A stretch of DNA of 64,000 bases from Nitrospirota bacterium (GCA_027314645.1 DAHVAL010000002.1:124001-188000), one strand, 5' to 3'; shown: positions 22,670-33,319, numbered from the stretch's first letter. The notes: generated from the sequence alone by a model not told the origin. Program-made: numbers and translations.

Positions 22670-23467
22670 TTACAGGATGAGTGGGTCGAAGCTTGCCAAT
22701 ATCTGAACCAGCCCAGGAATGCGCTCCTTGGCCCATAGGCGGCCCCCATGGACATCCAACCCCTTGAGAAGGTGCAGCTCCCGGAGCCTCCCCGGAGGAT
22801 CCAGTCGGTCCAGGATGTCTCGATTCAGGGCGGGAAGGAATCCCCAATCCGGGTCCTTCCCGCCCAGTACCCCCGCAATCATTTTATCCATCCAAAAAGG
22901 AATCAGGGGATCCTCCCGTCCTCTCGCCATTTCCATCGGATTCTGCGACCAGATGCCTGAAAGAAGAAGAAGAATTTTTCCTCTCCCAGAGCCGACTTTC
23001 AACCGCCGCAGGGATTCTCCCAGAAGAAATGCCTGCCGCACCCCGTAAAGAGACTGCGAAACGGGAACCACCGGGGTCGTCCCTTCCGGGAGAAGAAAGA
23101 AAAGGGGAATGGACATGGCATGGTCGATGCCATGGATTCCCTCCGCAACGGGCATGCCGCACGAACGGGCGGCCAAGATCAACGAACGTCCGATCTCAGG
23201 CTCACCCGGGGGATCATATTGGTAATGATGCCCGAATCCCGAGAAATCCCGAGAGGACCGATGCTCGGCCGAAAGATCGATGAGGGTGGCATGCCGTGCC
23301 TGCCACCCGGGGGAATAGGCGATGACCGCCCTAAACGGTTCGGCAGATCTTGAAAAGAGATCCTGGCGCATCTTCACGAACGCCCCGAGGATCTCTCGAT
23401 CCAGTCCGCTCTTCCAGGAGGAGAGCAGATCCGGGGTATGGGGGGCCATGACCGGCCAAAGTTCCAC
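22670..23467 (-). CDS. LigB/DODA-like (extradiol dioxygenase-fold) protein
   Basis: 265 residues resembling the class III extradiol dioxygenase LigB family (YgiD, also related to MEMO). The parts I can align are Pro-His-Thr-Pro near the N-terminus, a Ser-Pro-Gly-Trp motif near residue 52, an Ile-Asp-His-Ala-Met-Ser-Ile-Pro-Leu segment, and Pro-Val-Val-Pro-Val-Ser. In active relatives the second motif is Ser-x-His-Trp and the His binds iron. Here it is Gly, so metal binding or activity may differ. It is the next gene after the methyltransferase in the same direction with almost no gap. Confidence 0.6.
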   Translation of the reverse strand: MELWPVMAPHTPDLLSSWKSGLDREILGAFVKMRQDLFSRSAEPFRAVIAYSPGWQARHATLIDLSAEHRSSRDFSGFGHHYQYDPPGEPEIGRSLILAARSCGMPVAEGIHGIDHAMSIPLFFLLPEGTTPVVPVSQSLYGVRQAFLLGESLRRLKVGSGRGKILLLLSGIWSQNPMEMARGREDPLIPFWMDKMIAGVLGGKDPDWGFLPALNRDILDRLDPPGRLRELHLLKGLDVHGGRLWAKERIPGLVQILASFDPLIL

Positions 23468-24595
23468 CTATTCCTCCTCCGAAGACTCCCAGGGAGTCCC
23501 GTTTGGCCTTAAAACTCCCGTCACGGGAACCTCTTTGGGCCAATCCTCAAAGGGCGATGACCCCTTGTTGAAACCGGCGTCCATGGGAGCCCATGGGGCA
23601 AGGACCGATTCCCCCCGCTTAAGGTGCCAGAAGACCCGATTGTCACCTGTTCTGTTTCTGTTGAGGAGACGCAATTTATGGATCCGCTCACCGTCGCAGA
23701 AAAGTCCCCAGGCCATTCCTTTTTCCCGGTGAAGGGGAGACACGAGGCGGATCAGGGGGGAGAAAGAAAGGCGGCGGGGGTCCCCGGTCCGGGAAAGAAT
23801 CAGGTAGGTCATTTTCAGCGCATCCTTGATATGTCCCAGGACACTGGCCGTCTTTTTCGTTTCCTCAGAAAAGACGGCGGGCCTGTCTTCATGACACCAA
23901 TCCTCCGGAGAGCGGAGGGCGGGGCAAGAACCCAGCCGGTCATTCGGGCAGGGAGCTAAAATATGCAGATCGGGACACGCAGTCCTCAATTCATCGCCCA
24001 GAAACAGGAGGGCGCGCGAGGACAGCCGGTCCGCAGGTTCGGCGAAAATCATCATTCCACCGGGAGAGAGCGTGTCATGGACCCGGCGGAGCAGCGTGAG
24101 GAACCCAGAGAGATCCGCTCCGTTTTCGGCAAGAAGATTGCCGGCCGTCAACAGATCAATCGGGGTCCTTCCCTCGATCCATGAGAGGAACCCCGGAAGC
24201 GTTCCGACCGCCAGACGAAGAGACAGATTCTCCACTTGGCCCAGCCCCCGGGAGGCTTCTTCCAGAACTCCCTTTGACCGGTCGACCAGGAGGAGGTCGA
24301 AGGAAGCTGGAATGTGGTCCCGAAGTCCTGACACAAGTCCACGGATAAACTCACCGGTTCCGGTCCCCAGGTCGACGATGGACAGACGTTCCTGTCCCAT
24401 GAGATCGGCGCCATTTCTCCGAAGGATCTCCTCCGAAAGAGCCCTCCCTTTTTTTAGGCTTACCGCCCCGTAGTATTCCCCATAAGCCTCCCGGGTCTCC
24501 GGATCGTCCATGTAACTTCCGGGGACGCTCCGCTCCGTGAAGCCTCGGGAAAGTCCGGAAAGAATCGTCAGTTTCTTGTTTTTTGGGTTTACCAT
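23468..24595 (-). CDS. Rsm22/METTL17-like SAM-dependent methyltransferase
   Basis: A 375-residue protein with a Rossmann SAM-binding motif (Val-Asp-Leu-Gly-Thr-Gly-Thr-Gly) near residue 75. A cysteine-rich segment follows (Pro-Cys-Pro, Ser-Cys-Pro, Trp-Cys-His) around residues 218-238. That segment and the domain order are characteristic of the Rsm22 family, whose mitochondrial members act in small-subunit ribosome assembly and carry an iron-sulfur cluster on these cysteines. The bacterial role is largely undefined. It is divergent from hisS. Confidence 0.75.
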   Translation of the reverse strand: MVNPKNKKLTILSGLSRGFTERSVPGSYMDDPETREAYGEYYGAVSLKKGRALSEEILRRNGADLMGQERLSIVDLGTGTGEFIRGLVSGLRDHIPASFDLLLVDRSKGVLEEASRGLGQVENLSLRLAVGTLPGFLSWIEGRTPIDLLTAGNLLAENGADLSGFLTLLRRVHDTLSPGGMMIFAEPADRLSSRALLFLGDELRTACPDLHILAPCPNDRLGSCPALRSPEDWCHEDRPAVFSEETKKTASVLGHIKDALKMTYLILSRTGDPRRLSFSPLIRLVSPLHREKGMAWGLFCDGERIHKLRLLNRNRTGDNRVFWHLKRGESVLAPWAPMDAGFNKGSSPFEDWPKEVPVTGVLRPNGTPWESSEEE

Positions 24596-25979: not shown

Positions 25980-27308
25980 TCACGAGGATTTTCCAAGCAC
26001 ATACACTGTCGCGTTCTGGCTGAACTCCCCCGGCTGTGGGGTTTTTTCATGCACCCTCACGATAAAATTGTGAAGGCCAGGCCCCAGGTCTTTTCCAGGT
26101 TCCACCGTAAACCGAATCTTTTGATGCGCTCCTGGCGGAAGACTCACCCGGGTGGTCTCAAATTTCACCCTGTCGGCGGGAATTCCTGTTTCCCCAATCA
26201 AGAATTGTTCCGGCTTCGGGGTCTTATTGTAGAGTCCCACCTCAAACTGGTCCAGGCGCCCAGGAACTTGGCTGACCGTGACGTGGTACGGCAAATAGGT
26301 GAGGATTCCATAAATAAACAAGCTCAAGGGGATCAGGCTCCCAACCCCTGAGAGAAGGAACCGCACTGTTCCGGGGGAGAGCTTCCGCCCTTTCATTGTC
26401 CCATCGGGCTTGACGAAGACTCCGTTCTTGTGGAAGGTCAGAAGTGAGGGAACCCCGCGTTTCAACGAATAATCCTCGCAGGCAACCACACATTCTCCGC
26501 AATTGATGCACCGCGAATAGTTTTTGGTATCCCGCGGATCAATATCAATAAAGCAGGACTTGACGCAAAGATTGCAGCCGGTGCATTCGTTTCGCCGCTT
26601 GTGGTCGAAGGCCACCTTCAAGGTGTCGTCCGTCTTGAACATATGTTGCCAAAGGGGGTAGGGGCAGACCCATTTGCACCAATAATGACGGACGAGGAGC
26701 AGGTTCATGAACATCACTCCCCCGACTCCGAACACAAGCCAGTAAACCGTTTGGCTCCGGCCGGAAAGAAGGTCTTGGATCAACGTTTTCGGGGGAATGA
26801 CATACGCCGATATAAGGATCGACACTGTCAGGGAAAAAAGAACGACCCCTCCAAGAAAAATTGACCATTGAAAGATTTTTCGCGGCACCGAGGTTTTTTT
26901 GGGCTTTGGGCCGGACAGGGAAATCTCCCCGATTCCAGGGCCGAGAGTCGCCGCACCGAACGCGAATCTGGCAAGAGCATTGGTCCATTCTGAGAACGTG
27001 TTCTGAATGCAGGCCCATCCGCAATACACCATCCCGAACACAGCATAGACGGCTGTCATCGCAAAGATGAGGAAGAGCCAAAAAGGAAGAATCAGATAAA
27101 AGTCGCTCCACCAGATCTGATAACCGAAAAGGTCGAAGCGTCCCGTGGAGAGATCGATATGAAAAATTCCGGTGAACGGAAAGAGAATAAGCAAAAGAAT
27201 GAAAGCCACTTGGACGGCATAGCGCACTTGCGTGACGCGGATCCCGCGCGAGGGGAGAGGGCGGTTGCCGATTTTGGGCATGGGGATGAGCGGTTGGGTC
27301 TGTTCCAT
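25980..27308 (-). CDS. ccoG: Cytochrome oxidase accessory protein CcoG (RdxA/FixG)
   Basis: This membrane ferredoxin is implicated in copper reduction during cbb3 oxidase assembly. The 442 residues include about five membrane helices and an internal 2[4Fe-4S] ferredoxin domain (Cys-Thr-Gly-Cys-Asn-Leu-Cys-x3-Cys and Cys-Ile-Asn-Cys-Gly-Glu-Cys-x3-Cys). A C-terminal immunoglobulin-like periplasmic domain ends the protein. It is the last gene of the respiratory cluster, about 50 bases after a small membrane-protein gene. Confidence 0.95.
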   Translation of the reverse strand: MEQTQPLIPMPKIGNRPLPSRGIRVTQVRYAVQVAFILLLILFPFTGIFHIDLSTGRFDLFGYQIWWSDFYLILPFWLFLIFAMTAVYAVFGMVYCGWACIQNTFSEWTNALARFAFGAATLGPGIGEISLSGPKPKKTSVPRKIFQWSIFLGGVVLFSLTVSILISAYVIPPKTLIQDLLSGRSQTVYWLVFGVGGVMFMNLLLVRHYWCKWVCPYPLWQHMFKTDDTLKVAFDHKRRNECTGCNLCVKSCFIDIDPRDTKNYSRCINCGECVVACEDYSLKRGVPSLLTFHKNGVFVKPDGTMKGRKLSPGTVRFLLSGVGSLIPLSLFIYGILTYLPYHVTVSQVPGRLDQFEVGLYNKTPKPEQFLIGETGIPADRVKFETTRVSLPPGAHQKIRFTVEPGKDLGPGLHNFIVRVHEKTPQPGEFSQNATVYVLGKSS

Positions 27309-27357
27309 ATATGAGGGCTCCCGTTATTCCTTCTCAGAATAAACATTCCCACAGAGC

Positions 27358-27642
27358 CTACTCTTCTGTGTCTTCATCCCGGGAACCCTTTCCTGGTCCG
27401 GCTTTCTCGAGATCCCGTTTAAAATACCAGGCAACCCCAAGATACAAGAAAACCGGGACGAGGACTCCCATTAAAAAGACCAGGTAGGCAAACCAGGGCA
27501 ATCCCAAAGTGACGTGCACATAACGGGGGAGGTAGGCCCAGGATTTCTCCGGGATCCACATGTCCCCTACTCCCCATATTGCCCCCAACAGCAGGGATTT
27601 GTAAAGCCGGGAGATTTTCCCGATTCTACCCATTGGCTCCAC
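27358..27642 (-). CDS. Small membrane protein in the oxidase cluster
   Basis: 94 residues with two hydrophobic segments (about 15-30 and 45-72) and a charged tail rich in Lys, Asp and Glu. I do not recognise a family. A GTG start shares a base with the stop of the CcoN-like gene before it. An ATG three codons further in is equally possible. Co-transcription with oxidase genes suggests a subunit or assembly factor. Confidence 0.65.
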   Translation of the reverse strand: MEPMGRIGKISRLYKSLLLGAIWGVGDMWIPEKSWAYLPRYVHVTLGLPWFAYLVFLMGVLVPVFLYLGVAWYFKRDLEKAGPGKGSRDEDTEE

Positions 27643-28232
27643 TACTGGTGCACCTGACCGGAAGACCTCGGTACGGGAGCCATGAGGCGTGCAGGGGCTT
27701 CTTCCCGTTCGCCAAGCGGAAGCGCGCGCCGCCCTTTGGCCACCTGGACGGTCATATAGATGTTATAGGCAAAGATGATATTGGCCAACAACACAAAGAG
27801 TCCAAAGATCCCCACCATTTCCATGTATGGGGCTTCCACGGGTTTGATATCGGCGACATTTCCGTGAAGAAGGATCATGCCTCCCTTGTATCCGGCAATG
27901 CAGAAGGCCAGCACCATTCCGACCAGGCTGATGTTGTGCATCCAAAAATGGATTTTCAGGAGACGATAGCTGTACAGCGGCCCTTGAAAGATTTTCGGAA
28001 CAATAAAATACATGGACCCAAAGATCGCCATTTCCACCCAGCCAAGGAGATTGATATGGGTGTGTCCCAGAACGATGAGATCCGAAGGACCTCCAGCCCC
28101 GGCCTGGACAAAATTCCTGAAGCTTTCAACTCCGCCCATGACCGCCCCCCAGGAAAAGCCGACGATCGCGTACAAGAGGCAGGCGTAGTAGAACTTCATG
28201 ATGTAATCCTTGATCCTTTCATCCCTTGTCAT
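27642..28232 (-). CDS. Short CcoN-like haem-copper-oxidase subunit I homologue (B)
   Basis: 196 residues with about five membrane helices. The core Leu-Gly-His57-Thr-His59-Ile-Asn-Leu-Leu-Gly-Trp-Val followed by Met-Tyr-Phe-Ile-Val-Pro and Ile-His-Phe-Trp resembles the late helices of cbb3 subunit I (CcoN). In CcoN the two histidines spaced by one residue bind haems b3 and b. The earlier half of CcoN, with the copper-binding histidines, is missing. A truncated pseudogene is unlikely: the frame is intact, it is coupled to its neighbours, and a similar paralogue lies two genes upstream. Confidence 0.75.
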   Translation of the reverse strand: MTRDERIKDYIMKFYYACLLYAIVGFSWGAVMGGVESFRNFVQAGAGGPSDLIVLGHTHINLLGWVEMAIFGSMYFIVPKIFQGPLYSYRLLKIHFWMHNISLVGMVLAFCIAGYKGGMILLHGNVADIKPVEAPYMEMVGIFGLFVLLANIIFAYNIYMTVQVAKGRRALPLGEREEAPARLMAPVPRSSGQVHQ

Positions 28233-28258
28233 GGCATTCTCCTTGGGTCTTCAAAGTA

Positions 28259-29395
28259 TTATCGACGGGCATCCATGCAAAGGCGGAAGCCAAAAAAGTC
28301 CGATGCATAAAATGCCCATGTCGGGTTTCTTGCGCTCACCCGGGCGCTATACTGGTCGCTTTTCCAAGAACCGCCCCGCAGGACGAAATAACTCTTTCCC
28401 TTGACCGGATGGAGCGCCCCGGTCGCATCCACCTTATACGAATAGAATCGCGCCTTATTGGCCGTATTTCCCGGATATGGCCGATATTTTGAGCTGGTCC
28501 ATTCGAAGACATTCCCGGCCATGTCAAGGACGCCATAGGGGCTGGCTCCCATCGGATAGCGATTGACCGGAGAGGTGTCTCCTACCGTGTAATTGGCATT
28601 CGCCCTTCTGGGGTCCCATGTATTTCCCCAGGGCCACATCCGTTTATCATCTCCCCGGGCCGCTTTTTCCCACTCCTCTTCTGTACAAAGGCGGGCGCGC
28701 CTGAACTGGGCGTAATCCTTGGCATTATCCATCGACACAAAGGTCACGGGATAGTCTCCTCTGTCGGGAAGATATTGGCCGTTTTTCCAGTTTCCGGGAG
28801 GAATGTAATGGGCATTGTCGACAAAATCCTTGTATTCTTTATTCGTAACGAGATGTTTTTCGATCAGATAGGGAGGAAGATAGACCTTGTGAATCGGTTT
28901 TTCGTCAAAATTGGCGAATGAATCCTCCGATCCCATCCAGAAGGGACCTGCAGGGATGAGGACAAACCCTTCGGAAATTTTGTAGCCGGAGGAATCCACC
29001 TTTATTTGTGCCGTGGGAGCAAGATTTTTCCCTTCATGAAGATTTTTGGAAGCGGTCATTTGCTGAGCCGTTTTTCCTCCGGGCTGGACCCCGGTCAACA
29101 CTCCCCCCATCGGCCGGAATTCCCCGGGCGCCTCCCCATGCTTTCGAATACTGGCGGTCGACAACCGGACGATCCGGTTCGAGGCCAATCCCACCACATG
29201 GACCGCCCCAGCAATGAGGATCAAGAGAACGAATGTGATGGTAATAGCCTTCCAGGGAAGTTGCCAGGGAGACATTTCCGAAGGGGTCAGATCATCGTCA
29301 TCGGCCGTCGTCAGCGTTCGACCTTCTGGGGGGGGATTTTCCTTTTGGTGTTGACTCGCTCCATTGCCCTCTCTCTTGTCCTCTTCCATTCCCAT
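28259..29395 (-). CDS. SUMF1/FGE-domain membrane-anchored protein
   Basis: 378 residues: an acidic N-terminal stretch, one membrane segment (about residues 50-70), a linker, then a SUMF1 (formylglycine-generating enzyme) domain from about residue 145. The latter has Gly-Phe-Val-Leu-Ile-Pro-Ala-Gly-Pro-Phe-Trp-Met-Gly-Ser, Trp-Glu-Lys-Ala-Ala-Arg-Gly and Met-Ala-Gly-Asn-Val-x-Glu-Trp. The paired catalytic cysteines of true FGE near the C-terminus are absent, so sulfatase activation is unlikely. NirV-like relatives accompany respiratory enzymes. The ATG overlaps the stop of the paralogue-A gene (TGATG). Confidence 0.87.
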   Translation of the reverse strand: MGMEEDKREGNGASQHQKENPPPEGRTLTTADDDDLTPSEMSPWQLPWKAITITFVLLILIAGAVHVVGLASNRIVRLSTASIRKHGEAPGEFRPMGGVLTGVQPGGKTAQQMTASKNLHEGKNLAPTAQIKVDSSGYKISEGFVLIPAGPFWMGSEDSFANFDEKPIHKVYLPPYLIEKHLVTNKEYKDFVDNAHYIPPGNWKNGQYLPDRGDYPVTFVSMDNAKDYAQFRRARLCTEEEWEKAARGDDKRMWPWGNTWDPRRANANYTVGDTSPVNRYPMGASPYGVLDMAGNVFEWTSSKYRPYPGNTANKARFYSYKVDATGALHPVKGKSYFVLRGGSWKSDQYSARVSARNPTWAFYASDFFGFRLCMDARR

Positions 29396-29970
29396 CAAAC
29401 CCTTTCCTTCACAACCCCTGCCGTAGTTTTCACCATCTTCCTTTTATCGCGCGCCCAGACCGTAGCAAAAACATTGAAAACAAAGGTCCAATGCCCGATC
29501 CCCATCAACAGCGCTGAAAGGACGAACCCGATTTGATGGTACGGCTGGTAGACCGCCCGCGCCATCGGGTACACCTCCCCCTGATCCAACATCCTGTTCC
29601 CTTCAAGAATTCCGAAGGTCAAAAGGACCGAATAGAAGGCCACGACCCCCGCGACCATGAATACATAGCTCAATTCCCCCAGCATCTGACTCCATATCTG
29701 CTTTCCCGAAAGGCGCGGGAGAAGGTAATACACCATGGCCATCACGACGGACACCACTCCCCCGATCAGGTTGATATGGGCATGGGCTAAGGGATCCACC
29801 AAATGTCCCGCCTGACCGGTCATGTGAATCCAATGCCGAATTCGGGGGGTTGACTGAATGAAGCCTTGCAGAGTGCCGACGAACAGGCAAAACACTCCAA
29901 AAAGGATGAAGCGGAGTCCCAAGCGATCTGTCGAAGAATTGAGGGGTACTTCCTCTTGGCGTTGAATCAT
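29395..29970 (-). CDS. Short CcoN-like haem-copper-oxidase subunit I homologue (A)
   Basis: 191 residues with about five membrane helices. It carries Leu-Ala-His63-Ala-His65-Ile-Asn-Leu-Ile-Gly-Gly followed by Tyr-Tyr-Leu-Leu-Pro, aligning with the paired-histidine helix of CcoN/NorB, plus His46, His49 and His56 before it and Gly-Ile-Gly-His-Trp near residue 158. Like its paralogue it lacks the rest of a subunit I. It may bind haem b. Whether the two proteins assemble together is unknown. Confidence 0.75.
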   Translation of the reverse strand: MIQRQEEVPLNSSTDRLGLRFILFGVFCLFVGTLQGFIQSTPRIRHWIHMTGQAGHLVDPLAHAHINLIGGVVSVVMAMVYYLLPRLSGKQIWSQMLGELSYVFMVAGVVAFYSVLLTFGILEGNRMLDQGEVYPMARAVYQPYHQIGFVLSALLMGIGHWTFVFNVFATVWARDKRKMVKTTAGVVKERV

Positions 29971-29990
29971 GGTTGACCTCGCTTAAACAT

Positions 29991-30449
29991 TCAGGACACC
30001 CTTTCCGGCCCACGGGACCTGGGCTGTCTCGCCTTTGGAGGTCCGGAAGAGCGTCTTCGGCGCAGGACCTCCCCGACATATCCTCCAAGGAAAGACACCT
30101 CGGGAACCGTGATAAAGAAAATCATCATGAAAGGGGCGACTGGGATGCCGACCGCCATACCTGAAGGATGATAAACCTCATTCAGATATGCGATCAGCAA
30201 ATACCCCATGGGGGGGATTGGGCCGACAAATTTTCCGTAGGGGCCGGTGATGTATCCGGTAACAAAGGAAACGAACAGGGGAGCAAGGAGATAGGAAAAA
30301 AGGATTCCCGTTCCAAAAATGTGATGAAAAGCCCCACTTGTGAGTCCAAAGAATCGGTCGGATAACCAGAAAAGTGCGAATCCCGAAATGACGGCTAACC
30401 CAGCGTTGATTCGGTTCAGAGTTTTTTTCAATATTCCCGCCTCGTCCAA
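29991..30449 (-). CDS. Multi-pass membrane protein in the oxidase cluster
   Basis: 152 residues with about four hydrophobic segments and a basic tail of Arg, Lys and Pro. I do not recognise a family. Conserved-looking features are a Phe-His-His-Ile-Phe motif near residue 40 and several Pro-Gly pairs in loops. It lies 20 bases before paralogue A on the minus strand and is probably a subunit or assembly protein. Confidence 0.68.
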   Translation of the reverse strand: MDEAGILKKTLNRINAGLAVISGFALFWLSDRFFGLTSGAFHHIFGTGILFSYLLAPLFVSFVTGYITGPYGKFVGPIPPMGYLLIAYLNEVYHPSGMAVGIPVAPFMMIFFITVPEVSFLGGYVGEVLRRRRSSGPPKARQPRSRGPERVS

Positions 30450-30464
30450 AGATCCAATGGGGGG

Positions 30465-30677
30465 TTACTTGCCTTTGGGGGCTGACTGATGAGACTCCGG
30501 TTGTTCATGCGGAGGTTTCTGGGTGTCCCCGTCTTCGTCATTAAAAATGATGTATTTGATATTTTCATCAAATTGGCCATTTTTATAGGCCCAGTAGATT
30601 CCAAAAATAATAATGACAAGGGAAACAAGTCCGGTCGCCGTCCACAAATAGGCAACAATACCCTCCGGTAACTTCAT
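30465..30677 (-). CDS. ccoS: CcoS-like oxidase maturation protein
   Basis: 70 residues with one membrane segment (about 12-31) followed by Trp-Ala-Tyr-Lys-Asn-Gly-Gln-Phe-Asp-Glu and an Asn-Asp-Glu-Asp acidic patch. This pattern (Trp-Ala-x-Lys-x-Gly-Gln-Phe-Asp-Asp ... Asp-Asp-Asp) is that of CcoS, needed for cofactor insertion into cbb3 oxidase. The start is the ATG with AGGAGCG upstream. Longer versions begin in sequence without a ribosome site. Confidence 0.75.
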   Translation of the reverse strand: MKLPEGIVAYLWTATGLVSLVIIIFGIYWAYKNGQFDENIKYIIFNDEDGDTQKPPHEQPESHQSAPKGK

Positions 30678-30719
30678 TTTTGCGCTCCTTTTCCACAGGC
30701 ATTCATCGTGGTCCAATCC

Positions 30720-31151
30720 TCATTTTGGCGGTTTCGGATAATTCGGCGATCCTGGGAGAGACTTAAGACTCATCAAGAGGTCCACCAATTTATTCCGTTC
30801 CTCGGACGTCAGCTTGGAAAAGGTCGGTGCAAACTTTCCATCATGAGCTGTGCCAGGAACCAAGGACCCTGGATTATCAAAATAACGATGAAGCCAGTCC
30901 GAAGTTCGCCGGGTCCCTTCTCCATCCATATCGGGACCGTCATAATCCCCTTCTCCATAAACGACGTGACAGTCTCTGCATCCATACTTCTGAAAGACTT
31001 GGAACCCTGCATTCGATTTTTTGGAAAACAGGTAGACATCATTGGTCGTCCAAAATGTCAGGATATTCATTCGAGCCAAAACATATAGGACCACTACCGA
31101 GAGTACCATCAATCCAGAGAGCAAAAAAACAACCTTTTCGCCTGTTTTCAT
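30720..31151 (-). CDS. Membrane-anchored mono-haem cytochrome c
   Basis: 143 residues: an uncleaved membrane anchor (about 8-28), then a periplasmic cytochrome c domain with one haem site Cys58-Arg-Asp-Cys61-His62. A Met in the last helix (Leu-Met-Ser-Leu-Lys) is a probable sixth ligand. It resembles one half of a CcoP-type subunit. It should pass electrons to the membrane complex encoded around it. Confidence 0.9.
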   Translation of the reverse strand: MKTGEKVVFLLSGLMVLSVVVLYVLARMNILTFWTTNDVYLFSKKSNAGFQVFQKYGCRDCHVVYGEGDYDGPDMDGEGTRRTSDWLHRYFDNPGSLVPGTAHDGKFAPTFSKLTSEERNKLVDLLMSLKSLPGSPNYPKPPK

Positions 31152-31158
31152 TCGGCAG

Positions 31159-31365
31159 CTACACCAGAATTCTTAAGAGAAGTTGAATGATCGCAAAGGA
31201 AATAACGCTGATGATTCCGACAAAGCTCATCGCAATGATAACCTGCTCTCCGCGTTTGAGCTTTTTGAAGGGGCCGATAATGTAACGGGACATAATAGCA
31301 AAGGTTATCACCGATGCCGTAAGAAAGGTAAAGATTACGATCGAAACCGACATCTTGATCGACAT
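31159..31365 (-). CDS. Small two-helix membrane protein
   Basis: 68 residues, almost all hydrophobic, with two helices (about 5-24 and 43-66) joined by a Lys-Lys-Leu-Lys-Arg loop. The family is not known to me. It is 7 bases upstream of the cytochrome c gene and is the first gene after the internal terminator of this cluster. A TTGCGG-18-TACAAT promoter-like pair lies just before it. Confidence 0.65.
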   Translation of the reverse strand: MSIKMSVSIVIFTFLTASVITFAIMSRYIIGPFKKLKRGEQVIIAMSFVGIISVISFAIIQLLLRILV

Positions 31366-31427
31366 TCACCACCTCGCAAACCGATTGTACACCCACGGCG
31401 CAAAAAACCGCAACTTATAAAGGCAAC

Positions 31428-31456
31428 AAAAAAGGCGGTTCCTCAAGGAAACCGCC
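31428..31456 (-). terminator. intrinsic terminator inside the oxidase cluster
   Basis: GGCGGTT (31434-31440) pairs with AACCGCC (31450-31456), and on the minus strand the stem is followed by six T residues (31433-31428). It separates the upstream group (CcoO-like and three to four tiny genes) from the downstream group (cytochrome c, CcoS, CcoN-like proteins, CcoG). A T run also follows on the plus strand, but no plus-strand gene needs it. Confidence 0.75.
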
Positions 31457-31515
31457 CTTTTATGTATACGGAGTGGTGTTGTTCTCCGTGAGCCTTCTTC
31501 AGAAACGCAGAGACG

Positions 31516-31620
31516 TCACTCTGGCTTCACGTCATCGATGAAGAAGGAATAAATGAGTGAGGAAAAGAGCATAATCAATGTAATACACCAAAAGACCATT
31601 GGACTATTTACATTCCACAA
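31516..31620 (-). CDS. 34-residue single-helix membrane protein
   Basis: A TTG start, 8 bases after an AGGGAGG ribosome site, opens a 34-residue frame. It has one hydrophobic helix (about residues 8-27), Trp-Asn-Val-Asn-Ser-Pro before it and a short acidic tail. An in-frame ATG seven codons further in would give 27 residues. Its size and place between a membrane subunit gene and a terminator suggest a tiny oxidase subunit, comparable in size to CcoQ/CcoH-type peptides. Confidence 0.5.
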   Translation of the reverse strand: MWNVNSPMVFWCITLIMLFSSLIYSFFIDDVKPE

Positions 31621-31692
31621 AGGACTCACCTCCCTTTGGATTGTGAGTGTCACCTTTAGAAAGAGCCAAGTACATCCTAATAAAGTCCCTTA

Positions 31693-32025
31693 CTAGAAAT
31701 CTCTGGCAACTTCCGTTCTTTTCATCAGCAAGCCAACCCAAACAAAAAAGACGCACACATAGACGGAATTGATCACATACCCTTGATCCCACCAAGGACG
31801 AGCCAGATTGGGGGAAGTATGGGCTTTAAGCGTCGGCACACCCTGCACCAACCAGTAATGAAGGTGTCCCGGAAGCTGAGGACGGGCTCCAAACAACGGG
31901 AAAGTCAAAAGTGCTGCCGTCACAACGACCATCACGAGAAGCAGGATGATAATCCCTGGAACGTTGTTGGTCCCTTCGAGCATTCCGTCAAATCTCTCAT
32001 TTAGAAGCTCTTCAACATCAGCCAT
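31693..32025 (-). CDS. Two-helix membrane protein of the oxidase cluster
   Basis: 110 residues with hydrophobic segments at about 24-46 and 84-101. Between them is an aromatic loop with His-Leu-His-Tyr-Trp-Leu and Arg-Pro-Trp-Trp-Asp, which should face the periplasm. I do not recognise a family. It follows the CcoO-like gene in the same direction (about 110 bases). Confidence 0.68.
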   Translation of the reverse strand: MADVEELLNERFDGMLEGTNNVPGIIILLLVMVVVTAALLTFPLFGARPQLPGHLHYWLVQGVPTLKAHTSPNLARPWWDQGYVINSVYVCVFFVWVGLLMKRTEVARDF

Positions 32026-32138
32026 TACGGCTCTCCTTTCAGCAACTCTAATGGAATTAGTTCACCCATTCACAAGAATTCTCTGGAGCCTGCCGCTCTC
32101 CGAAAATTTCATTCCGGAGAGCGATCCACTTTTCAGAC

Positions 32139-32669
32139 CTATTTAAGGCTCATCATGTAATCTGCAAGCGCGTTGAGATCACGCCTGGAGAGATAGCTAA
32201 ATGACGGCATCTGAGACATCGGCTGAACCGAACGAGGATTGGCGTGATGCACGAGATGCCAACCTTTGATCGGAAGACGGCTTCCCACATGGAGAAGGTC
32301 CGGCGCCTTTCGGTCAGATCCGAACACGGTTGGAGCTTCTCCCACAAAGTCAGCAATTCTTGGGGGTGCTCCGAAATACTGCCAGTCCTGAGTTTGCTCT
32401 GGAAGAAGGGTATGACACCACCAGCATCCTTCGCGGACGAAGATCACCTTTCCTTTTCCGATCATGGTCGGTCGATCTTCTCCAGTCATGAATGGATCCT
32501 CAATCGTGAATCCACTGTCCGGACCATAGTCCTTTGCCTTCTGAATGGCCGTCGCAGAGGGAGGAACCTTGCTCATCTGCATGCTGGGGAACAACACTGT
32601 GATGGAGAGAGTTACGGCAAAAACCGTTCCAGTCATCATCACACCAAATTTATACTCGCGAAATGCCAT
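32139..32669 (-). CDS. CcoO-like membrane-anchored mono-haem cytochrome c
   Basis: 176 residues from an ATG with an AAGGAG site. One membrane anchor (about 8-28) precedes a cytochrome c domain with Cys82-Trp-Trp-Cys85-His86. The flanking Val-Arg-Glu-Gly-Cys, Pro-Asp-Leu-x-x-Val-Gly-Ser-Arg, Trp-His-Leu-Val-His-His-Ala-Asn-Pro-Arg and Met-Pro-Ser-Phe are diagnostic of CcoO/FixO, the electron-entry subunit of cbb3 oxidases. It is shorter than typical CcoO (about 200-240). A full CcoN is not encoded beside it, which is unusual. Confidence 0.9.
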   Translation of the reverse strand: MAFREYKFGVMMTGTVFAVTLSITVLFPSMQMSKVPPSATAIQKAKDYGPDSGFTIEDPFMTGEDRPTMIGKGKVIFVREGCWWCHTLLPEQTQDWQYFGAPPRIADFVGEAPTVFGSDRKAPDLLHVGSRLPIKGWHLVHHANPRSVQPMSQMPSFSYLSRRDLNALADYMMSLK

Positions 32670-32806
32670 CTCGCACTCCTTAGCGCTCTTGAGTTTTAAT
32701 CTGCCATCCACATGTCATGGATAACAATCCAGTTGCAAAGGGGAAAAACCCAATCCAAGAGAAGAAGACCGAGTCATCCCGGCAGACTTCTTCCCTCTGC
32801 AATCAC

Positions 32807-33031
32807 CTACTTCTTGCGTGCAGGATCGAACTTGGCATTCCCGCCAATTCCGGAAAAGCAGACAAACAACAGAACAATGCTCCCAATGGCCGAAGCTGTT
32901 CCCATAAAAGCGGCAAAGGAGGCCACGCCCTGGCTAGCCCCACCAGGCGTCATGCCGCAACAATGACTTGGATCGGATAGCTCTTTAAGCTGATCGGGAG
33001 TAAATGACGAAATCGCACTCAACATCCACAT
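32807..33031 (-). CDS. Small membrane protein of unknown function
   Basis: 74 residues with one hydrophobic, Gly/Ala/Ser-rich segment (about 32-62) preceded by a Cys-Cys-Gly-Met motif and followed by a short basic tail. The family is not recognised. It is the second gene of the respiratory cluster, between another tiny membrane protein and the CcoO-like gene. Confidence 0.6.
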   Translation of the reverse strand: MWMLSAISSFTPDQLKELSDPSHCCGMTPGGASQGVASFAAFMGTASAIGSIVLLFVCFSGIGGNAKFDPARKK

Positions 33032-33082
33032 ACTGGAACCTCCTCAGATTTTGGCTGGATTATTCGGATGTCCGGGATCTTC

Positions 33083-33319
33083 TCACCAACCTTCGCGCTT
33101 TCTGTGATAGGAGTAAGAATACAAACCGATAAGCGCTCCAGTAATGGTCGAAAGAACCATGATCCAATAAATCCACACATAGGATTCACGCCATGTTTCA
33201 AAACGATGGGCACCGAACCATTCTTGGAGACAGAAGCCGACAACGGATCCGCTCCCGACAGCCGAAAAAGCTCCTCCGAGCCAATAGGCCACAATCCCTT
33301 TCTGACTGCTTTCAGCCAC
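33083..33319 (-). CDS. Small two-helix membrane protein, first gene of the oxidase cluster
   Basis: 78 residues with hydrophobic segments at about 9-32 and 46-69 and a Tyr/His/Lys/Arg-rich tail. I do not recognise it. It is the first gene behind the TTGACA-17-TATTCT promoter, with an untranslated leader of roughly 90 bases. Confidence 0.62.
   Translation of the reverse strand: MAESSQKGIVAYWLGGAFSAVGSGSVVGFCLQEWFGAHRFETWRESYVWIYWIMVLSTITGALIGLYSYSYHRKREGW

Follow-up and report, generated by a model that had tools for sequence, protein, structure and literature searches.

The distal cbb3 oxidases of iron-oxidising bacteria make up the subtree of Ducluzeau et al. 2008 (PMC7029218, PMC8788666), and since the distal ccoNO of Sideroxydans is higher on thiosulfate (PMC8788666), such an oxidase need not be iron-specific. 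Related systems have been described in Ca. Tenderia electrophaga, a biocathode organism whose complex IV includes a CcoO homologue with a syntenic polyferredoxin and hypothetical genes (PMC5371394), and in L. ferriphilum, for which quantitative PCR (qPCR) of 'cbb3' has been published (PMC6695575). Here we describe a 14-gene cluster at positions 25980-33319 of a 64,000-nucleotide stretch (the window; DAHVAL010000002.1:124001-188000) from a 2.04 Mb draft genome, 95% complete, of a relative of the acidophilic iron oxidiser Leptospirillum, in the same family (Nitrospirota; GCA_027314645.1). The cluster is a split-locus distal cbb3 oxidase whose subunit I, CcoN, is encoded elsewhere. Two of its genes, named here hcoA and hcoB, encode half-size CcoN-like proteins. 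We consider it likely that the detached CcoN completes the cluster and that hcoA and hcoB are haem-b accessory subunits or assembly factors of this oxidase, as predicted from their sequences.

Composition of the cluster

All genes lie on the minus strand, from 33319 down to 25980, and are mostly separated by short gaps or overlap by 1-4 bases. The original prediction, made from the window's sequence alone, had listed CcoO-like and mono-haem cytochromes, CcoS, CcoG, two CcoN-like proteins of about 190 residues and at least six tiny membrane proteins; all were recovered, with seven tiny membrane proteins. TM denotes a transmembrane helix.

33083..33319, minus: s78, small membrane protein; in a sister Nitrospirota family its orthologues immediately precede full-length ccoN, as do those of Gammaproteobacteria, recognised by position and weak similarity
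32807..33031, minus: s74, small membrane protein; occupies the slot of ccoN in relatives; weak relative beside s78 in locus L142
32139..32711, minus: CcoO-like subunit; one TM, one haem c (CWWCH); PF02433/FixO 9e-18; distal clade in the tree
31693..32025, minus: s110, haem-less CcoP (FixP_N) membrane anchor; orthologue in locus L065 above the PF14715 cut-off (29.4 bits), window copy just E=0.045
31516..31653, minus: s45, single-TM small protein; kept across the family
31159..31365, minus: s68, two-TM small protein; present too in Gammaproteobacteria clusters
30720..31151, minus: membrane-anchored mono-haem cytochrome c; one CxxCH; PF00034 6e-9
30465..30716, minus: CcoS/FixS-like maturation protein; PF03597 4e-4, 20.5 bits, under the cut-off of 23.1
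29991..30449, minus: s152, conserved multi-TM protein; no Pfam or NCBIfam match
29395..29970, minus: hcoA, half-size CcoN-like four-TM protein; PF00115 55.5 bits
28259..29398, minus: SUMF1-like (FGE-sulfatase fold) protein with an N-terminal TM, between hcoA and hcoB; PF03781 166.8 bits
27642..28232, minus: hcoB, half-size CcoN-like protein; PF00115 52.8 bits; PDB profile match to CcoN 1.7e-21
27358..27642, minus: s94, single-TM small protein
25980..27308, minus: CcoG-like ferredoxin-type accessory protein; TIGR02745 7e-34, 117.6 bits, under the equivalog cut-off of 316.7

The system shares subunits I and II and homologues of CcoS and CcoG with the canonical cbb3 oxidase of P. stutzeri (3MK7), from which it differs in a CcoN only about 30% identical, in its extra small proteins, in the separation of ccoN from ccoO in the window's family, and in having, instead of a di-haem CcoP, a FixP_N-like anchor without CxxCH and a separate mono-haem cytochrome. 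The distal cbb3 oxidase of iron oxidisers is a closer match, with a CcoN bearing all ligands, a mono-haem CcoO, a haem-less CcoP-like anchor (from cluster comparison) and a distribution among iron oxidisers, and we infer that the CcoN proteins described below fall within Ducluzeau's distal subtree. Unlike that oxidase, the Leptospirillaceae version has its ccoN detached from the operon and additionally contains a SUMF1-like gene and a pair of half-size CcoN-like proteins.

Synteny, proposed as a check in other Nitrospirota, holds across the family: gene order is the same in all members having intact contigs. The ratio of nonsynonymous to synonymous substitution (dN/dS) was 0.03-0.09 for hcoA and hcoB where dS was estimable and 0.03-0.04 for ccoO, values that are rough as dS is near saturation. 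Conserved order and low dN/dS together argue that the cluster is not a chance assemblage. The apparent loss of hcoA from some family genomes was traced to assembly gaps, the contigs of G016 and G014 stopping at ccoO.

The detached subunit I

The claim that a full subunit I is missing stands for the cluster itself and falls for the genome. In the window's own assembly, COX1 matches were found at the ends of contigs C55 (L036) and C38 (L035), each adjoining a cytochrome c peroxidase gene; the two pieces jointly span CcoN and are not contiguous. One contains a frame break, and the other starts with unrelated sequence. Several relatives have two ccoN copies, and near-identical copies most likely disrupted the assembly here. 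Intact CcoN proteins of relatives are 460-490 aa long, align over their full length to P. stutzeri CcoN (3mk7, 3e-62) and keep the helix II His, the helix VI CuB His, the Tyr251 equivalent, the helix VII HH and the helix X HxH. The haem ligands, CuB ligands and cross-linked Tyr position that mark subunit I of a haem-copper oxidase (HCO) are thus all present in these orthologues, the window genome's own copy being in pieces. The complete genome of one relative (G015) encodes a single CcoN, its gene lying about 100 kb away from the cluster, and in the window's family none of the full-length ccoN loci examined has a ccoO neighbour.

This CcoN can be assigned to the CcoO of the cluster by the adjacency of the two genes in other lineages, the agreement of their trees, their copy numbers and the position of a gene pair. 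In the sister Nitrospirota family (f2), ccoN, ccoO and s110 are contiguous in 4/4 genomes, three of which have a detected s78 immediately before them; Arenicellales and related Gammaproteobacteria have the order hcoA, s78-like, ccoN, ccoO, s110, s68, cytochrome c, FixS-like. The window matches the Arenicellales-type series from s78 to the FixS-like gene, with s74 standing where ccoN would be. The CcoN and CcoO trees have in common a deep split from canonical CcoNO (100/99-100), and the sister family and Gammaproteobacteria, unlike Leptospirillaceae, encode the CcoO of the matching clade beside CcoN. The window's genome has one clear CcoO, as G015 has one CcoN, though G015 has a second, solitary ccoO besides that of the cluster. 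Lastly, the gene pair that adjoins the orphan ccoN of sister genera is found, in the window's genus, just past the ccoG end of the cluster with hisS in between, a position suggesting that the CcoN locus and the cluster were formerly linked. The original prediction had counted a complete CcoN elsewhere, clearly belonging to this CcoO, against itself; synteny and trees point to exactly such a protein, and of the options it had offered, the accessory complex serving a CcoN from elsewhere in the genome fits. In the window the pair (22670-24595, beside hisS) encodes proteins of 265 aa and 375 aa, the latter methyltransferase-like.

These results correct the view of the terminal oxidase of Leptospirillum, in which subunit I is present but genomically detached and is therefore missed by operon-based annotation. 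The published L. ferriphilum primers (PMC6695575) translate to IKGWHL and KKDLDA, both present in G015 CcoO, and had no match at the DNA level in the loci compared; on the strength of the translations, the gene measured is probably the ccoO orthologue of this oxidase. G015 also carries a second, solitary ccoO (L161:6917-7591), without the rest of the cluster.

Two half-size relatives of CcoN

Both hcoA and hcoB exceed the PF00115 (COX1) cut-off of 34.8 bits and match just the C-terminal part of the family, at positions 309-432 and 305-413, respectively. Profile matches were best to CcoN helices IX-XII (hcoA 4e-13, hcoB 1.7e-21), with weak matches to the other two CcoN repeats; a free-standing four-TM unit of haem-copper fold therefore bears on the origin of the 12-TM subunit I from repeated four-TM units. 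HCO subunit I proper has 12 TMs and CuB ligands, and these proteins have about four TMs (hcoA four by hydropathy and AlphaFold2 (AF2) model, hcoB three to four by hydropathy) and no helix VI/VII ligands. The hcoA model consists of four long membrane helices (predicted local distance difference test (pLDDT) 91), and its best PDB matches by Foldseek were all HCO or nitric oxide (NO) reductase subunit I, with TM-scores of at most 0.72 and E-values slightly above 0.001. The hcoB model is poor (pLDDT 64, 11 sequences), its top structural matches being likewise CcoN. Placement of the short proteins in an unrelated family, the other outcome that had been counted against the prediction, was not found, both being relatives of HCO subunit I.

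The predicted His-x-His motif is invariant in both proteins (hcoA H63/H65, hcoB H57/H59), and the copper-ligand half is absent, as had been noticed. All 71 hcoA sequences compared share H63, H65, D59, Q39 and a number of glycines, and 69/71 have H56; in hcoB the invariant residues are H57, H59, H95, H99 and E67, the four histidines lying in two helices. It is plausible from this conservation that the motif holds a haem in each protein; a sixth ligand for hcoA, if any, would have to be supplied by a partner. The tree of the shared module rests on a short alignment and has many long branches; in it hcoA, hcoB, CcoN and a widespread family of 135-145 aa proteins each form one group, with hcoA and hcoB outside the CcoN clade (99/89). 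hcoA and hcoB are neither fragments nor degraded: they group apart from CcoN and from one another and, judged by the dN/dS values, are under strong purifying selection.

The 135-145 aa proteins, a half-size NO-linked family found in Nitrospirota and Thermus nic clusters, resemble hcoB in having about four TMs, the HxH motif and a sister position in the tree; they differ in being shorter, uncharacterised and encoded outside oxidase clusters. CcoN-like HxH membrane proteins of 125-145 aa (L038:825-1238, L039:7058-7465, L127:4956-5333) are widespread, apparently uncharacterised and neighbours of DUF542/DUF1858-like proteins, CRP/Rrf2 regulators or nir/nor genes. Exactly this gene set is not known to have been described, according to the original prediction, and the literature searched gives no account of its half-size components. 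The Ca. Tenderia electrophaga clusters have similar counterparts in biocathode metagenome-assembled genomes (L095), and the portion of that account available to us (PMC5371394) describes no half-size CcoN-like protein.

Possible roles of hcoA and hcoB

The cluster would supply all but subunit I, that is, CcoO, the haem-less CcoP anchor, a separate mono-haem cytochrome c, the CcoS/CcoG-like maturation proteins and small subunits, and would be joined by CcoN from elsewhere in the genome. By analogy with the family, Fe(II)-derived electrons would pass from periplasmic cytochromes through the mono-haem cytochromes and CcoO to CcoN, where O2 would be reduced. We infer that hcoA, with hcoB as a partner in Nitrospirota, probably binds haem b through the His-x-His of its four-TM module and may serve CcoN either permanently, as an accessory subunit, or during assembly, as a factor loading haem or CuB. 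Some observations weigh against this account. The window's assembly has no contiguous intact ccoN, and one piece has the frame break; H145 and H160 are not kept in hcoA proteins from outside Nitrospirota, so that bis-His haem binding within a single hcoA is unsupported there; and hcoB groups with small proteins encoded beside NO-response genes, which may mean another role.

Assembly alone is a real, if minority, possibility: both proteins would mimic the CcoN haem module, hold haem b (or CuB copper) or deliver it to newly made CcoN, and be absent from the mature oxidase. Their genes share a cluster with CcoS- and CcoG-like maturation proteins, hcoA is often opposite ccoG and away from structural genes in Gamma- and Zetaproteobacteria, and it conserves just HxH and H56 rather than a full ligand set; in Arenicellales and related Gammaproteobacteria, however, it immediately precedes s78-ccoN-ccoO, like a structural subunit. 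A role of hcoB, possibly also of hcoA, in handling NO or protecting the oxidase from it is unlikely. hcoB does join the 135-145 aa family (95/90, short alignment), whose members adjoin DUF542/DUF1858-like proteins, CRP/Rrf2 regulators and nir/nor genes, but hcoA falls outside that clade, family searches recognised no NO-response genes in the cluster and none were seen adjoining it.

The haem-b electron-transfer complex of the original prediction is tenable only as an accessory module. As a separate complex built by hcoA and hcoB, possibly together with s152, with no more than the operon in common with the oxidase (carrying electrons, for example, from cytochrome c to quinone), it is quite improbable: although the sister family keeps hcoA, hcoB, cytochrome c, s152, SUMF1-like and ccoG genes at a locus distinct from ccoN-ccoO, and hcoB has its four invariant His in two helices, hcoA is linked to distal CcoN across phyla, bc1 already serves reverse electron flow in L. 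ferriphilum (PMC5772234) and no evidence of a quinone site was seen. It is more doubtful still that hcoA and hcoB, with s152 or as oligomers, form a haem-b membrane module of single four-TM HCO repeats docking on the distal oxidase and opening an extra electron or NO/quinone pathway; this would be a haem-copper architecture not yet described. The remaining option, a fragmented oxidase in which the two proteins are split or decaying pieces that jointly rebuild subunit I, was prompted by their likeness to CcoN in a cluster without a full one and is hardly credible. Both match one and the same C-terminal module, nothing supplies the CuB ligands, and they form clades apart from CcoN and coexist with an intact copy; trees and strong purifying selection led us to reject it.

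Distribution across bacteria

Scanning 85,000 species genomes for hcoA relatives gave 232 coding stretches. The best 80 of 232 come from Nitrospirota (Leptospirillum-type and others), Gammaproteobacteria, Zetaproteobacteria (Mariprofundus among them) and, in small number, Betaproteobacteria; biocathode bacteria are named on some of the records. Distal CcoN (54-100% identity, compared with about 30% for canonical CcoN) was present in 34/37 tested hcoA-bearing proteobacterial genomes, and in different phyla hcoA seems to mark the presence of distal CcoN. Taxonomy and the literature (PMC7029218, PMC8788666, PMC5371394) point to an association with iron or electrode oxidation, and two conserved components without assigned function can now be named in the oxidase of such bacteria.

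Within Nitrospirota, hcoA and hcoB occur together in 20/20 genomes, and distal CcoN is confined to the two families bearing both. In the sister family the FixS-like, cytochrome c, s152, hcoA, SUMF1-like, hcoB and ccoG genes are grouped, s152 and s94-like genes being detected in most genomes. hcoB is confined to Nitrospirota; it was not found in the gamma- and zetaproteobacterial loci examined, where its hidden Markov model matches full-length CcoN at about 62-107 bits. The SUMF1-like gene (28259-29398 in the window) is kept in these oxidase clusters across phyla, and the Gamma- and Zetaproteobacteria version of the cluster conserves an 886 aa spermine-synthase-like/TPR protein (L095:6565-9225).

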